This document shows positions 18,344 through 63,508 of a DNA stretch of 64,000 nucleotides, one piece after another. Within the stretch, counting starts at the first letter, position 1. Every line of letters begins with the position of its first letter. The notes under the pieces are model-generated. The model was not told where the DNA came from. It saw nothing but the letters and a program-made list of their open reading frames with translations, and did not search any database. Location: assembly GCF_014284155.1 (NCBI RefSeq), contig NZ_JACOFZ010000002.1:468711-532710 (forward strand), written 5' to 3'. The translations under genes and the position numbers were made by a program. The stretch comes from Affinundibacterium nitidum (GTDB lineage: Bacteria; Pseudomonadota; Gammaproteobacteria; Burkholderiales; Burkholderiaceae_D).

Positions 18344-18681
18344 GTGATGCTGACTCCATTCGTCGAATTGTAGTTTGTATTTGTTCGTGCGTTGAATACT
18401 GGGCGTGCGATTGTAGCCGAGAATGTGCAGAGCTTAGCTTTTGTGTGCAGGAATAGCGATGCCGAAACAACAATTTCGAGTGTTTGTTCTGGGTTGATTT
18501 GTATCGTAGTTTTGCAGGGTGGGTACACGCCCATCTATAAACGCCAAGCGATTAGCGATTCAATCGTCACTGGTACGAAGGTCCAACTGGGTTGAACGAG
18601 CGACTGTAGGTCGGGGGTGGCCCGACAGCCAGTCACCTTTTTTGTCTCGCCAAAAAAGGTAACCTAAAAAAGGCGACCGCA

Positions 18682-18805
18682 CTAAATCGCCCTTCGGGTG
18701 CCCAATGGTGCATAACAAAAAATGGGAAAGTGTTGAAACTCGCCTTCGGCTCAAACAGCAACACTTTCTTTTTCCATTTTCTGTTGCGCACCATTGGCGA
18801 TTTAG
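18682..18805. repeat. Long palindromic module A1
   Basis: Left arm CTAAATCGCC, CAATGGTGC, AAATGG and AAAGTGTTG (18727-18735) pair with CAACACTTT (18759-18767), CCATTTT, GCACCATTG and GGCGATTTAG on the right. The loop is AAACTCGCCTTCGGCTCAAA. Read on the minus strand it has the same plan as module A2. Confidence 0.88.
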
Positions 18806-18929
18806 AAGCGGAGCTGCGTAAAGCTCAAAAGCAACGACAACACCAAAACAAGCAATCTCGACGTTCGCTCTGCTTTCAATTATCCGTCGGGAATCGTTGG
18901 TTTTGGCTTTGGTTTTCATCCACTTCTGA

Positions 18930-19049
18930 CACTGCCAATTGTGTGAGGCAGAAATGGGAAAAAGAGAGTCAGGTGTCTCAGCGAAGCGAGTTTCTGACTC
19001 TCCCCATTTTTGACTCGCACAATTGGGAAGCCGAAGGCCAGTGGCAGTG
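18930..19049. repeat. Long palindromic module A2
   Basis: Nested stems: CACTGCCA (18930-18937) with TGGCAGTG (19042-19049); CCAATTGTGTGAG (18935-18947) with CTCGCACAATTGG (19014-19026), 13 bp with one G-T; AAATGGG with CCCATTT; GAGAGTCAG (18964-18972) with CTGACTCTC (18994-19002). The loop GTCTCAGCGAAGCGAGTTT resembles the reverse complement of the A1 loop. Confidence 0.88.
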
Positions 19050-19303
19050 TGGTCGCCTTTCTTTGCTTACTTTCTTTGGCGAAGCAAAGAAAGTGAGTGG
19101 CCGCCGGGCCACACCCGGCCAACTAACTTTAATAATCACCAAAAGCCAATGAAACAAAGAACGAAAGACACTGGATTCACCCTTGCAGGGTACGCCCGTG
19201 TTTGCAAACACGAGTCAATCGCCGAGCAATCAGCATGCTAATCGAAACCCTCGCCAATTCCTTCGCGAGAATGACAGGCCAACGTATTCGGTCATCATCA
19301 ATC

Positions 19304-21625
19304 TCATTTTCTCACTCTCCACCAAGACGGCAACAAAGCACGTACTTGCGCTTGATTAAACCGATCATCCATCAAGTAAATCACCCCTTGATCTTCCGGT
19401 GTCCGTATCACACGGCCCGCTGCTTGCACTACTTTTTGTAAGCCGGGAAAAAGATAGGTGTAGTCATACCCTGCGCCAAAAATGTCTTGCATGCGTTGGC
19501 GTATATGTTCGTTGATGGGATTCAGTTGTGGCAATCCGAGCGTAGCGATGAAGGCACCGATCAGGCGTGCGCCTGGCAGGTCTATGCCTTCACCAAAGGC
19601 ACCGCCTAAGACGGCGAAGCCTATGCCTTGGCTGTGTTCGGTGAACTGGTCAACAAACTGTCTGCGCGCAGACTCGTCCATGCTGCGCGTTTGCGTCCAG
19701 ATTGCAATATCGGGGTAGCAGCGCTGCAAATCTTCGCGCGCTTGTTCCATGTAGTCGAAGCTGCTGAAGAATGCGAGGTAGTTGCCCGGCTTTGCGGCGA
19801 ATTGGCTTGCAATCGTTTCGCTGATGGGGCGTAGGGATTTTTGTCTGTCTTGGTAACGTGTAGAGACGTGGTCAAGTACCTGCACGGACAATTGTTCTGA
19901 TCGAAATGGCGAGGGCACATCGATCCATGCGGTGTTATCGGGCATGCCTAGCAAATCGCTGTAATAGTTCCACGGACTCAATGTGGCAGAAAACAAGGCG
20001 CTGCAATGGCTGGCCGCGAAGCGATGTTTGAGGAAAGGCGCGGGAACGATATTGCGCACGCAGAGTATCGATTCGCCGCGTTCAATTTTTACGTCGAACA
20101 AGGAGTGCTCAGCAAAGCTTTCACACAAGCGACTGAACAATAAAGCGTCGAGATAAAAACTCTGCAGCTCTGGCAATACAGCGGTTGGATGTTGATTGAA
20201 GTAGCTAGCCACATCGGCACAAGCATTACTTAGAGCGAGTAGAAATTTTTCAGGTAACTGTTGATGAGCGATATACTCATCTTCTTGTTCTTTGTGCAGC
20301 TGGCGCCATTGCCTCGCGACGCGTTCGAACGGTTTTTTCAGATCAGCAGGCGCGAGTTTGCGCATGGCTTTGAAGTCGCGATAGGCTAACTCGGCGCTAT
20401 ACATGGCCCGAGCGCGCGCCACCATATTGTGCGCTTCATCGACTAAGAGTGCGACCTTCCACTCGTTCGCTAACGTTTGCCCAAACAACATGGCATTCAA
20501 GTCAAAGTAATAGTTGTAGTCGCCTACCACCATGTCTGACCACTTGCTCATTTCCGTGCTCAGGTAATAAGGGCAAATCTCATGATCCAAGGCGAGTTGA
20601 CGTAAATTGGTTTGGTCTAAAACCGGCACCCGCAACGCGGCTTGTCTCGCAGCAGGAAGGCGATCGTAGAAACCCTTCGCTAGGGGGCATGAATCACCAT
20701 GACAAGCTTTATCGGGATATTCGCACGCTTTACTTTTGGCGACCAGTTCAATCACACGCAGCGGGCGCATGGGTTCAACACCCTGCACCGTATCTGCCGT
20801 GTTTAATTGCGGCGCCAGCGTTGTGATGGCGTCTAATGCCAATTGCCGTCCCGATGTTTTGGCGGCCAAAAAAAAGATCTTATCGAGGCTATGTTCTTTG
20901 CAGGCTTTTAGCATAGGGAAGATACTGGCCATGGTTTTGCCTATGCCTGTTGGTGCTTGCGCCAGCAGGCAACAGCCACGATGACTGGCCTTGTACATCG
21001 CTTCCGCCAACTCGCGCTGCCCGACCCGAAATTGGGCGTGCGGGAAAGTCAGGGCATCCAACACGGCATCGCGTTCTTGTCTATGCCGCATCTCCTGCTT
21101 TGCCCAAGCTAAAAACAGCGTACATTGCTGTTCGAAGAACACACGCAATTCTTCGGCACTGTGATTCGTGCTTACTGCAGTTTCGGCCTTGGTATCAACA
21201 TTAAAGTAAATCAAGCTGACGCGAATTTGTAGAAGCTGCAGCTTCTCACATAACAAATGCGCGTAAATCTTGGCTTGCGCCAGATGCAAACAACGGTGGT
21301 TCTCAGGGATATTGGCAAGATCTCCACGATAGGTCTTGATCTCTTCGACTTGTTTGCGCTCGGGCCAATAACCGTCTGCCCTGCCCTTCACTAGCAATTC
21401 TTGATAGCCCCCCTGTAAAGCAACTTCGTATTCGTAGCTGGCGGGACGTCGCGACACCACTTGCCCGTGGCCCTCAATGCCTTCTTGTGCGCTTGGCGAC
21501 GGCGTGAAGCGCAAATCGAGATCACCTTGTTTGGCAGTGAATTCGCACAGGCTACGAACACCGATAGTGTAGTTGGCTAGAGTCGTCGCCTCTGCATCAG
21601 TTTTGGCAGTAAGGACTAGCGTCAC
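19304..21625 (-). CDS. Iron-sulfur Rad3/DinG-type DNA helicase with N-terminal Cas4/RecB-like nuclease domain
   Basis: The start chosen is GTG at 21623-21625, which overlaps the stop of the upstream FAN1 gene (GTGA); an ATG 60 bp further upstream would read into FAN1 and adds no family sequence. The protein is 773 residues. The N-terminal 160 or so carry a PD-(D/E)xK pattern (GRADGYW, then VEEIKTYRG, then a late Gln/Tyr helix). Helicase motifs: Walker A APTGIGKT, DEAH box VDEAHN, and motif VI QAAGRVIRTPEDQG. Four cysteines between motifs Ia and II (KACEYPDKACHGDSCP and HEICPYY) match the XPD/DinG 4Fe-4S site. It should unwind or cleave damaged-DNA structures with FAN1. Translation is coupled to FAN1. 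Confidence 0.93.
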   Translation of the reverse strand: MTLVLTAKTDAEATTLANYTIGVRSLCEFTAKQGDLDLRFTPSPSAQEGIEGHGQVVSRRPASYEYEVALQGGYQELLVKGRADGYWPERKQVEEIKTYRGDLANIPENHRCLHLAQAKIYAHLLCEKLQLLQIRVSLIYFNVDTKAETAVSTNHSAEELRVFFEQQCTLFLAWAKQEMRHRQERDAVLDALTFPHAQFRVGQRELAEAMYKASHRGCCLLAQAPTGIGKTMASIFPMLKACKEHSLDKIFFLAAKTSGRQLALDAITTLAPQLNTADTVQGVEPMRPLRVIELVAKSKACEYPDKACHGDSCPLAKGFYDRLPAARQAALRVPVLDQTNLRQLALDHEICPYYLSTEMSKWSDMVVGDYNYYFDLNAMLFGQTLANEWKVALLVDEAHNMVARARAMYSAELAYRDFKAMRKLAPADLKKPFERVARQWRQLHKEQEDEYIAHQQLPEKFLLALSNACADVASYFNQHPTAVLPELQSFYLDALLFSRLCESFAEHSLFDVKIERGESILCVRNIVPAPFLKHRFAASHCSALFSATLSPWNYYSDLLGMPDNTAWIDVPSPFRSEQLSVQVLDHVSTRYQDRQKSLRPISETIASQFAAKPGNYLAFFSSFDYMEQAREDLQRCYPDIAIWTQTRSMDESARRQFVDQFTEHSQGIGFAVLGGAFGEGIDLPGARLIGAFIATLGLPQLNPINEHIRQRMQDIFGAGYDYTYLFPGLQKVVQAAGRVIRTPEDQGVIYLMDDRFNQAQVRALLPSWWRVRK

Positions 21626-23352
21626 GGCGCATCCTCTTGCCAACGCAAATAGCATACTGAAATCGGCAATGCATGTTGCTGACAAAATTCGATCAGACGC
21701 AATTGATTGTCTTGTAGCTTGTCTCCAGGACCTTTGACTTCGATCAGTTGGTAAGCCTCTCGTTCTGGGTAAAACTGAATCAAATCAGGGAAACCACTGC
21801 GATTGCTTTTGATGTCGGACAAGATGCGCGTGAACCAGTGTTTCAAATCATGCGCTGGGATGCAGTGCAATGCCATTTCCAGCAGATCTTCATCCAACGT
21901 TTCCCAGAACACGAAGGGTGACTGTTTACCGTATTTTTCAGCATAGGTCTGACGAATGCGATCGCGATAGACGTCGGATTCCAATAGCGCGAAACAGTGG
22001 GCAAAGTCGTCTGCTCGTCTTTGCACAAAGTCTTCGCTGCTTAAGTCAACGGGGCCACGATGGAAGGGATGAAAAAACGCGCCTGGCAAAGCTTTAAAGA
22101 TAGCAGGCCAACACAGCAAGCCGAGTAGGGAATTGAGTAAAGCGTTTTCGACATAAAACACTGGCGCGTCATCTTGATGCAAATGCTCGCGCACTACATG
22201 TTCCACATAAAAATCTTCACTTGGGTAAGGCAATTCGAGATGCAAAGTATGAATCTCTATCGCTGCTTTTTTCTCAGGCTTTTGCAAACCCAGCTTACGG
22301 TTTAGGCGCGGGGCACTTCGCATTAATTGCTGTAATTCGGCATCGCTTTCTGGCGCCGCTATTGCTTGGTTCAAGAGTTCTAATGCAGCAGCACTTGCGC
22401 CCATTTTTTCAAGCACGCGAATGCATCGCTGGCGTGCGCCGGGATAGCCGCTTGCAAGATAAGCTGTTTCAGCGAGTGACCATGTTTGCTGTTTTTCCGC
22501 ATACTGGCCGATATGAAATAAGAGTTTATGACGCCGCCGTTCTATCCATGCATTGGAGATATTGAGTTCTTGTACTTGGGAGAGAACATGGTCTACCTCT
22601 TCTATCGAGGCACATTGATCAAAGGTATCTCGACAACTTTGCAAGGCAAGATAGTCATCGACATCACGACGCGACTGAAAGCCACGAGCTTCAGGAGAAA
22701 AATCTATACTTTCATATTGATAGATGCCGAGGTCAGACAAGACGAACTCTGACCAATCTTGATGGCTGTTTCCAAAAAAAATCAAGCGCAAGCGATGACA
22801 CAGATCTTTGATTTTGATCCGCCACACTTGTTCATCTGCGTTGGCGTACCACGAAGAAAACGCCTGCACCAGCTCACCACCATCGGCATCTTGAAACTCG
22901 GCTTGCTCAGCCAAAGAGGCGAGTAAATCAGCCTTCTTTAATTGCTTTTGTGTTGACGTTAAAGCGAAGCTTGTTGTCAATTCAGGCTTCAATAGCAAGT
23001 CAAACAATTCGCTTAAGCTTAATTGCGGATCTTCCTCCACCCATGCCACATCGATCAAGACTTGCATTGCCATTGCGGTATCGCCTATCTCGTCGTAATG
23101 CAGTTTACTGCGACGAAATAGCTCACCTTTCCGCATGACCATGCGCACAAACAAAGCACGCGAGGCTTGCGGTAACTCGGCAAACTGGTCGATGAATTGC
23201 TTCTCTTCCGCGTTGAGCACATCGTCATAACGCGAGCGTACCCAGTCGAGTACAAGCTCGAAATTGTCGAGGTAGTACAAGGGGTCCAGAATTGGAAGCC
23301 CTGCCTCCGATGCGACATCGGATTCGAGCATGGAATTGATATGAGACGACAT
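21622..23352 (-). CDS. FAN1-like structure-specific nuclease with VRR-NUC domain
   Basis: 576 residues. The N-terminal part has the FAN1 helical/SAP-like opening (PLYYLDNFELVLDWV, then RALFVRMVMRKGELFRR) and a TPR-like middle (GYPGARQRCIRVLEKMG). The C-terminal VRR-NUC domain carries the nuclease motif GFPDLIQFYP followed by LIEVKGPGDKLQDNQ, i.e. PD-x(n)-ExK. FAN1 proteins are 5' flap/exonucleases that unhook interstrand crosslinks. The gene is co-transcribed with the helicase downstream (4-bp overlap). A LexA-type box lies 40 bp before the ATG, so DNA-damage induction is likely. Confidence 0.93.
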   Translation of the reverse strand: MSSHINSMLESDVASEAGLPILDPLYYLDNFELVLDWVRSRYDDVLNAEEKQFIDQFAELPQASRALFVRMVMRKGELFRRSKLHYDEIGDTAMAMQVLIDVAWVEEDPQLSLSELFDLLLKPELTTSFALTSTQKQLKKADLLASLAEQAEFQDADGGELVQAFSSWYANADEQVWRIKIKDLCHRLRLIFFGNSHQDWSEFVLSDLGIYQYESIDFSPEARGFQSRRDVDDYLALQSCRDTFDQCASIEEVDHVLSQVQELNISNAWIERRRHKLLFHIGQYAEKQQTWSLAETAYLASGYPGARQRCIRVLEKMGASAAALELLNQAIAAPESDAELQQLMRSAPRLNRKLGLQKPEKKAAIEIHTLHLELPYPSEDFYVEHVVREHLHQDDAPVFYVENALLNSLLGLLCWPAIFKALPGAFFHPFHRGPVDLSSEDFVQRRADDFAHCFALLESDVYRDRIRQTYAEKYGKQSPFVFWETLDEDLLEMALHCIPAHDLKHWFTRILSDIKSNRSGFPDLIQFYPEREAYQLIEVKGPGDKLQDNQLRLIEFCQQHALPISVCYLRWQEDAP

Positions 23353-62209: not shown

Positions 62210-62791
62210 TCAACTCTTAGACAGAGCTTTAAGGGCCGCTTTAATACCATCCGAAACGCCAGAGCCAGCAGGCACCAGTTTCAATGCAGCCAATGCTTCT
62301 TTGTCGGAGTAGCCCAAGGCCAGCAAGGCATTCAAAATATCGGAACTATGGTCACCCGCAATCGCAGCCGCGCCAGCCGCTCCCAAATCTGCCCCGAGCT
62401 TACCTTTCAACTCTAATAGCAAACGTTCGGCCGTCTTCTTACCAATGCCAGGCACCCGCGTTAAACGCCCTGCCTCTTGCAAAGTAATCGCTTGCGCCAA
62501 ATCGGCCACTGACATCCCAGACAAAATCGACAAAGCGGTACGCGCCCCAACACCGCTAATCTTAATCAACTGCCGAAACGTGGCCCGTTCTTCTGCTGTA
62601 CCAAAGCCAAACAAGACATGCGCATCTTCGCGGATTGCCAAATGCGTCAATAAAGCCACCTTTTCACCCAAAGCAGGCAAGTTATAAAAAGTACTCATCG
62701 GCACATCGATCTCATAGCCAACGCCTTGGCAATCAACCATGATTTGAGGGGGATTCTTTTCAATTAAGGTTCCGGCGATACGACCTATCAT
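62210..62791 (-). CDS. ruvA: Holliday junction branch-migration protein RuvA
   Basis: 193 residues, the usual length: an OB-fold N-terminus ([19 protein letters not shown]), two HhH motifs ([16 protein letters not shown] and [20 protein letters not shown]) and the C-terminal domain III ([21 protein letters not shown]). It binds four-way junctions and loads RuvB. The start lies 12 bp from a LexA-like box. Confidence 0.97.
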
Positions 62792-62925: not shown

Positions 62926-63439
62926 GAGCCGCTGTAGGTCGGGGGTGGCCTGACAGTCTTTACCTTTTTTGCTTCGCCAAAAAAGGCGACCGCACTAAAT
63001 CGCCCTTCGGGTGCCCAATGCTGCACAACGAAAAATGGGAAAGTGTTGAAACTCGCCTTCGGCTCAAACAGCAACACTTTCTTTTTCCATTTTCTGTCGC
63101 GCATCATTGGCTATTTAGAAGCGGAACGGCGAAACCCACCGCTCAACCTCAGGCCGTTGAAATACGCTTAACCTTAGCTACTTTCTTTCGCAATTTCATT
63201 TGCTTACGGCCTTTGAGTGCGTATGTTTTGACTTGCCCGCGTCTGGCACTGCCATTTGTGCAGGGCAGAAAATGGAAAAAGAAAGCTTTGTTGTCTGAGC
63301 GAACCGAGTTTCAAAGCTTTCCCATTTTTTGTCCTGCACAAATGGGAACCCGAAGGGCAGTGACGGTTGCGTCGCCTTTCTTTGCTTACTTTCTTTGGCG
63401 AAGCAAAGAAAGTGAGTGGCCGCCGGGCCACACCCGGCC
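62926..63439. repeat. Structured intergenic repeat, copy B (about 514 bp)
   Basis: Homologous to 18598-19120 over its whole length: the same leading hairpin, module B1 (62995-63118, same AAAGTGTTG/CAACACTTT stem as A1), module B2 (63247-63362) and the same CTTTCTTTG and GCCGGG terminal part. In B2, CCATTTGTGCAGG (63252-63264) pairs perfectly with CCTGCACAAATGG (63333-63345), and GAAAGCTTTG (63281-63290) with CAAAGCTTTC (63312-63321). It fills most of the gap between ruvA and the last gene. Confidence 0.9.
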
Positions 63440-63508
63440 AGCGAAACAAACCGCAATCAAGGACCGATGTAAGTACGCAGCCGAATACGACCAATCAAAA
63501 GATAAAGA

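Follow-up and report, generated by a model that had tools for sequence, protein, structure and literature searches.

A multicopy palindromic repeat family in Affinundibacterium nitidum and other genera, with a predicted single-strand fold

Two palindromic repeat copies, A and B, lie within a 64,000-nt stretch of the Affinundibacterium nitidum contig NZ_JACOFZ010000002.1 (hereafter the window, which is the whole stretch of DNA that was analysed). Their stems differ in sequence and remain paired. The locus raises the question of what is maintained in these copies, and whether it is maintained as RNA or as DNA. A previous sequence-only reading of the window had proposed that the fold, as RNA or as extruded DNA, is what is kept.

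Layout of copies A and B and of the repeat unit

In a repeat search, each of the two copies came out as a single palindrome of about 520 nt, composed of two units of about 200 nt that face outward (Table 1). The palindrome arms are 18606-18683/19046-19123 in A and 63002-63055/63305-63358 in B. A second module in the opposite orientation had been described in each copy; it was confirmed, and modules 1 and 2 are related since each element is one palindrome. The compensated stem differences were also recovered. The module 2 outer stem is CCAATTGTGTGAG with partner CTCGCACAATTGG in A and CCATTTGTGCAGG with partner CCTGCACAAATGG in B, with three positions differing and compensated; at a fourth position just one arm has changed (T.G in A vs C-G in B). 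The inner stems, GAGAGTCAG/CTGACTCTC in A and GAAAGCTTTG/CAAAGCTTTC in B, are paired at every base. The two copies had further been said to keep the same loops and borders. The module 2 apical loops are in fact not identical, each having one substitution relative to the consensus, and the borders given were off by a few bases, as A runs to 19123 and B starts at 62934. The observation on A and B is confirmed and is part of something larger: the two modules are copies of one larger unit, with a triplex pattern and a predicted pseudoknot, that is present in many genera. In the left P2 of B, 14 nt are missing between two AAAAAAGG repeats relative to A.

Table 1. Features of copies A and B, in window positions. 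P3 scores are those of model R1; triplex and pseudoknot parts are predicted.
Feature	Position	Strand	Details
Copy A, whole palindromic element	18606..19123		made of two divergent units; each end may reach about 15 nt further, with weak conservation
A left unit, REP-like end hairpin	18606..18626	-	GTCGGG-loop-CCCGAC; GTAG just before
A left unit, P2 triplex/pseudoknot	18638..18676	-	parts in minus-strand reading
A left unit, pseudoknot arm	18672-18676	-	TCGCC
A left unit, third strand	18666-18671	-	T6
A left unit, P2 arms	18652-18657 with 18638-18643	-	loop GGCGA 18647-18651
A left unit, P4 small hairpin	18690..18698	-	CCC-GAA-GGG
A left unit, P3 long hairpin	18691..18804	-	102.7 bits
A centre, variable	18805..18927		between the two units
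A right unit, P3 long hairpin	18928..19037	+	92.3 bits; outer arms 18935-18958/19003-19026
A right unit, P4 hairpin	19030..19038	+	GCC-GAA-GGC
A right unit, pseudoknot/triplex/P2 region	19053..19093	+	
A right unit, pseudoknot arm	19053-19057	+	TCGCC; third strand TTTCTTT 19058-19064
A right unit, P2 arms	19070-19078/19085-19093	+	loop GGCGA 19078-19082
A right unit, REP-like end hairpin	19103..19119	+	GCCGGG-CCACA-CCCGGC
Copy B, whole palindromic element	62934..63440		
B left unit, P3	63004..63117	-	97.8 bits
B left unit, P2	about 62962-62990		truncated
B right unit, P3	63245..63356	+	107 bits
B right unit, pseudoknot arm, third strand and P2 hairpin	63372..63412	+	
B right unit, REP-like end hairpin	63422..63438	+	

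The unit strand was defined as the one reading TGTYTGAGCG. On this strand, the variable centre is followed by the closing stem P1, the long hairpin P3, the small hairpin P4, the 3' strand of P1, the pseudoknot arm, the third strand, a linker, the P2 hairpin, and the REP-like end hairpin; the second pseudoknot arm is located in the loop of the P2 hairpin. P3 contains AAAATGG/CCATTTT, the bulge ATNA(A) of 4-5 nt, an 8-10 bp inner stem whose sequence is almost completely variable among units, and the apex TGTYTGAGC-GNA-GCGAGTTT. The whole-unit alignment (A2) misaligns the closing stem, which was scored by script instead. A complement of at least 4 nt was found in 171 of 174 units vs 62% of mismatched pairs, and one of at least 5 nt in 68/174 vs about 16%.

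Several copies depart from this plan. A structured insert of about 80 nt (GTGTAGCAGGG...CCTGCGNAACGG...) replaces the apical GNA hairpin in four copies (L198:5657-5847, L199:749-937, L214:142-330, and L153:6072-6251). Its own stems are variable yet still paired, and its pattern was found in none of 12 genomes searched. The element centre 3' of the module in L186 is a long AACTTC hexamer tandem repeat, and related GTTGNN runs are present in other element centres. The REP-like end hairpin is altered at the left ends of L103 and L127, where a different palindrome, GGTTGGACTATAGTCCAAC, is present. In an Aquificaceae MAG (L148, L172, L175), a lone unit lies within an element seemingly ending, as judged by eye, in inverted repeats like TGATGTTACGCA...TGCGTAACATCA. 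Near copy A, a DinG/XPD-like helicase and a VRR-NUC (FAN1-like) nuclease are encoded (19304-23352), and ruvA is near copy B (62210-62791).

Paired changes, strand asymmetry and the third strand

Covariation was scored on 35 modules picked for diversity out of 197 (alignment A1). Paired cells in the P3 structure amounted to 92.3%, compared with a shuffle mean of 71.3 and at most 49.2 in slid controls, over which the tested structure is favoured by having been derived from the same sequences. Cells changed on both sides numbered 256 (shuffle mean 68.8; slid controls at most 87), a value reached by 0 of 500 shuffles, although kinship among sequences can beat shuffles even without structure. At least one both-side change was seen in 30 of 36 pairs (shuffle mean 20.4). 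Each of these three values exceeded every one of the 500 shuffles and every slid control.

Strand asymmetry was examined in 149 distinct rows, fitted to the model and drawn from the 150 best of 240 matches. The pair cells comprised 4799 Watson-Crick, 279 G.T, 29 A.C, and 167 other combinations; counted as distinct local variants, G.T exceeded A.C by 124 to 27. A model-fitted alignment leans to structure, but the strand is set by the apex, so the asymmetry does not come from the fit alone. C-to-T damage of the exposed strand could add to the G.T excess. The inner stem alone, taken without a model and read on the opposite strand, gave 15 A.C and 3 G.T among 64 distinct stems (64 of 66 kept, including at least one window match that is no element), which is the same direction. 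The predominance of G.T over A.C on the unit strand indicates folding by one strand alone and not a symmetric cruciform; extruded DNA of the latter form, one of the two options proposed earlier, is accordingly disfavoured.

The third strand was compared with the pyrimidine arm of P2 in mirror and in direct orientation. A first test that included the flanking Cs (direct 45, mirror 34, tie 37) was confounded because the Cs ahead of the third strand form part of the pseudoknot arm; it was replaced by one scoring the T-blocks alone. Downstream of apices, 154 distinct P2 strings were found, 147 of which could be parsed. The mirror relation only was seen in 52 strings (17 distinct sequence pairs), the direct relation only in 0, both in 91, and neither in 4. 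In L152, one of the last four, a G faces an inverted T-A pair, and G is the best known third-strand answer to such a pair. The unit strand is predicted to form a parallel pyrimidine triplex in which the third strand mirrors its partner.

Potential intrastrand triplexes (PIT) offer the closest comparison for P2. Its order of Hoogsteen, pyrimidine, and purine strands is that of class IV, in which the 5' Hoogsteen strand mirrors the pyrimidine arm of the hairpin, and the P2 sequence pattern has this relation (PMC4666352). TM_ECO (BoxC) is a G/C-rich purine motif; P2 is rich in A/T, of the pyrimidine type, and coupled to a predicted pseudoknot within a larger unit, and the passages of PMC4666352 consulted give no description of it.

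Pairing between the P2 loop and the 5' flank was parsed in 134 units. The complement was 5-6 nt in 115, 4 nt in 7, 3 nt in 11, and none in 1, hence at least 3 nt in 133/134 and at least 4 nt in 122/134, mostly as the single version TCGCC/GGCGA. The 36 distinct versions included 12 of this common kind and 24 others (e.g., TGCCC/GGGCA, GCGCG/CGCGC, GCGACC/GGTCGC, and GTGGCC/GGCCAC). Among the 24, the complement was at least 4 nt in 14 and at least 3 nt in 23, vs 22% and 62%, respectively, for arms set against the loops of other units. The predicted pseudoknot is supported, far less strongly than P3 or the triplex, and no reading of the family depends on it by itself.

The proposal that the fold itself is maintained is strongly supported by the covariation, the triplex mirror pattern, and the strand asymmetry of G.T over A.C. 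The outcome that had been named as speaking against it, unpaired changes as common as paired ones, was not found in the copies examined. As far as sequence patterns can tell, the hairpin and the triplex are well supported, and a one-strand fold is what is conserved while the sequence changes freely.

Distribution and turnover of the family

BLAST of A within its own genome (G000) returned 18 matches; many cover only part of the element or hit one copy a second time, on its opposite strand. With model R1 there were 16, which by hand count are 11 real units (at least 47 bits) and 5 weak opposite-strand shadows. Matches to A were found in 33 of 60 genomes. Among 398 Pseudomonadota genomes, the exact 19-nt apex was present in 21, the own genome included (reversed control, 0), and 24 were positive with R1; nine candidates were scored per genome in the latter scan, so that copy numbers are lower bounds. 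The named hosts among the matches listed are Undibacterium, Herminiimonas, Herbaspirillum, Sapientia, Solimicrobium, and Oxalicibacterium. The MAG hosts among them are labelled Duganella, Elusimicrobiaceae, Aquificaceae, and Oleiphilus, where the Elusimicrobiaceae and Aquificaceae matches may include misbinning. A and B belong to a multicopy palindromic repeat family spread over many genera.

The order of units was minus-then-plus, with the end hairpins pointing outward, in all 39 two-strand clusters counted by hand (G000, 5; G016, 16; G014, 6; G031, 12); the exceptions are clusters L189 and L243, which read plus-then-minus. With a simple ORF caller, the neighbouring genes in 58 element contexts were convergent in 20 cases (background 72/519), divergent in 4 (88/519), and tandem in 34 (359/519).

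RuvA and RuvB were identified at the B site. At this site next to ruvA, units are present in G000, G017, and G002 as different versions, and none was found in the 2-kb stretches of five other species (G008, G010, G016, G006, and G019). The flanks adjoining B differ even from those of G017, in which the neighbouring genes are 91-98% identical. Modules reassort among copies: the copy at C11:1208093 of G000 corresponds to one in G017 (C261) whose left P2 and P3 are different, and module 2 of L131 is a chimera of two stem variants, in which one arm comes from the GAGAGTCAG stem and the arm facing it from another stem. Recombination can thus break pairing, but such cases are rare among 64 distinct stems. 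Neither a precise empty site nor a target duplication was readable in G017 or others, where copies are altered or flanks too diverged; mobility is therefore deduced from distribution.

Cargo of phages or plasmids was ruled out as an explanation. None of 50,697 phage records matched, and the strict pattern was absent from viral contigs. Seven of 72,556 plasmid records matched, each over 8-18% of A near its P2 end, and six of these matches lie on replicons of 0.67-2.5 Mb.

Readings of the family

The loops bear on whether DNA or RNA folds. GNA triloops account for 218 of 237 apical loops (GNRA, 1; UNCG, 0) and for 116 of 208 P4 loops (GNRA or UNCG, 0), compared with 11 GNA, 11 GNRA, and 3 UNCG among 818 GC hairpins outside the elements. 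With a stricter stem rule for hairpins 3' of P3, GNA was found in 45/375; the enrichment remains and is smaller. In DNA, a GNA loop with a C-G closing pair is very stable. The same apex, TGTTTGAGCGAAGCGAGTT, occurs in two integron attC-like sites whose ends pair (L358 and L359, both matches of the model). These two were recognised by eye; two scripts listed neighbouring attC-like sites rather than these, and further attC-like sites lie within the same stretches (script). A third candidate, L357, also looked attC-like. By convention, we take the apex strand in L358 and L359 to be the attC bottom strand, which is the strand recombined as ssDNA. With RNA parameters, its folding energy was -28.7 vs -22.2 kcal/mol for the top strand in L358 and -40.2 vs -27.9 kcal/mol in L359. 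The GNA loops and the apex-bearing attC-like sites favour ssDNA, without proof.

We prefer the reading that the family is a non-autonomous mobile element that folds as single-stranded DNA and is moved in trans by a predicted enzyme, to which we give slightly less than even confidence. The fold would form when the unit strand is exposed on the lagging-strand template or during repair or transfer. An enzyme supplied in trans would recognise the apex, the bulge, and the end hairpin and would copy or move the element from one intergenic site to another. With two inverted units, either strand, once exposed, would carry a unit able to fold, and copies might afterwards swap modules by recombination. 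The many dispersed copies and the presence of units at the B site in only some species are in line with mobility, and the minus-then-plus order of the 39 clusters also counts for this reading. Against it, no partner enzyme emerged from the 50 Y1-transposase stretches or from the TnpB search of 20 positive genomes described below, clusters L189 and L243 run in the opposite order, and GNA drops to 45/375 under the stricter stem rule.

That the unit instead acts as RNA, from its own or read-through promoters, with the fold guarding mRNA 3' ends or forming an ncRNA-protein complex, is possible but rather doubtful. G.U tolerance and pyrimidine triplexes occur in RNA too, which counts against the ssDNA reading. 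The tolerance here is strand-specific, the triplex and pseudoknot patterns suit RNA, neighbouring genes tend to converge (20/58) and seldom diverge (4/58), and an inverted pair would place the fold in transcripts from either side. Against RNA stand the apical loops, almost never GNRA or UNCG tetraloops, the apex in the two attC-like sites, and the Rfam searches. The latter gave no match at gathering score in the window, and weak scans of 8 + 8 loci gave 6 matches, every one far below gathering score; a known RNA family was rejected on these results. Selection on the fold would not be needed at all if paired changes arose by template switching in quasi-palindromes and spread by gene conversion among copies. 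Palindromes this large invite template switching, and the reassorted modules, the L131 chimera, and the differing G000 and G017 counterparts fit such a history. Template switching produces inverted complements and would not give the mirror pattern of P2 (52 mirror-only vs 0 direct-only), and it predicts neither a one-strand excess of G.T over A.C nor a fixed loop, which makes this explanation improbable.

REP, REPIN, and BIME repeats with their RAYT transposases are dispersed intergenic palindromes with inverted pairs and end hairpins, as is the present family; the unit described here differs in its length of about 200 nt, its long hairpin, and its triplex and pseudoknot patterns (PMC3733652). 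A large element of the REP/BIME type moved by a RAYT (TnpA_REP) would account for the REP-like end hairpins, the GTAG ahead of the left hairpin in A and B, the REPIN-like inverted pairs, and the intergenic location. The unit is several times the 20-40 nt of a REP. A hairpin was present at 34 of 36 left ends, where no constant GTAG (or CGTC) tag was found at its foot: GTAG preceded it in just 7 of the 34, ACAG in 12, GCAG in 4, GTTG in 4, GCTG in 3, and four others once each. The RAYT domain PF01797 occurs in 49 of the 60 genomes searched, but 50 Y1_Tnp stretches (some overlapping) held no element (best R1 E value, 0.74) and no hairpin of the GTCGGG type, for which, rather than GCCGGG, the script was written; in 20 of these stretches, BLAST with A and B as queries likewise found none. 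RAYT was therefore rejected as the mobiliser, and a REP-type origin seems highly improbable. Least credible is a double-stranded cruciform serving as a structural or replication-arrest site. The near-perfect 520-nt palindrome invites this idea, but the strand asymmetry speaks against it, and in some copies the P3 starts lie up to about 650 nt apart, with several hundred bases between units that would hinder extrusion.

Other known systems resemble the family in part. Integron attC sites also fold as hairpins, but no R and L boxes were seen at the hairpin base of the repeat and no cassette array was seen; boxes with GTTRRRY at the base were absent from the repeat units inspected and present in L358. 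Like MITEs, the family is non-coding and multicopy with inverted ends; unlike in MITEs, neither a terminal repeat matching that of a transposase nor a target duplication came to light, and G017 and the other genomes compared showed no clean empty site. TnpB reRNAs (omega RNAs) contain a pseudoknot and a triplex, and the present unit likewise is structured and ends near a transposon-like end. A TnpB guide RNA was rejected since a TnpB domain was found in only 1 of 20 genomes bearing the unit. That sole match is a 487-aa frame in G000 (C32:65513-67054; L053, L407), near an IS200-type TnpA of 181 aa. No recognised description of the motif was found in the literature searched, where most subscription journals lay outside coverage.

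Returning to the ssDNA reading, a bolder and tentative conjecture, which we hold to be possible and no better than doubtful, is that this widespread selfish DNA is a folded ssDNA "machine", a branched hairpin with a pseudoknotted pyrimidine triplex, and that a host factor or strand-transfer enzyme of one kind reads the apical GNA hairpin both here and in integron attC sites, which would be why they share it. Palindromic repeats may be linked to the recombination sites of integrons. The apex motif and the covariance model offer a clear way to search for the enzyme by which the repeat is moved or read. A triple helix made visible by third-strand covariation in natural repeats would be rare evidence that living bacteria make use of such a single-strand structure.
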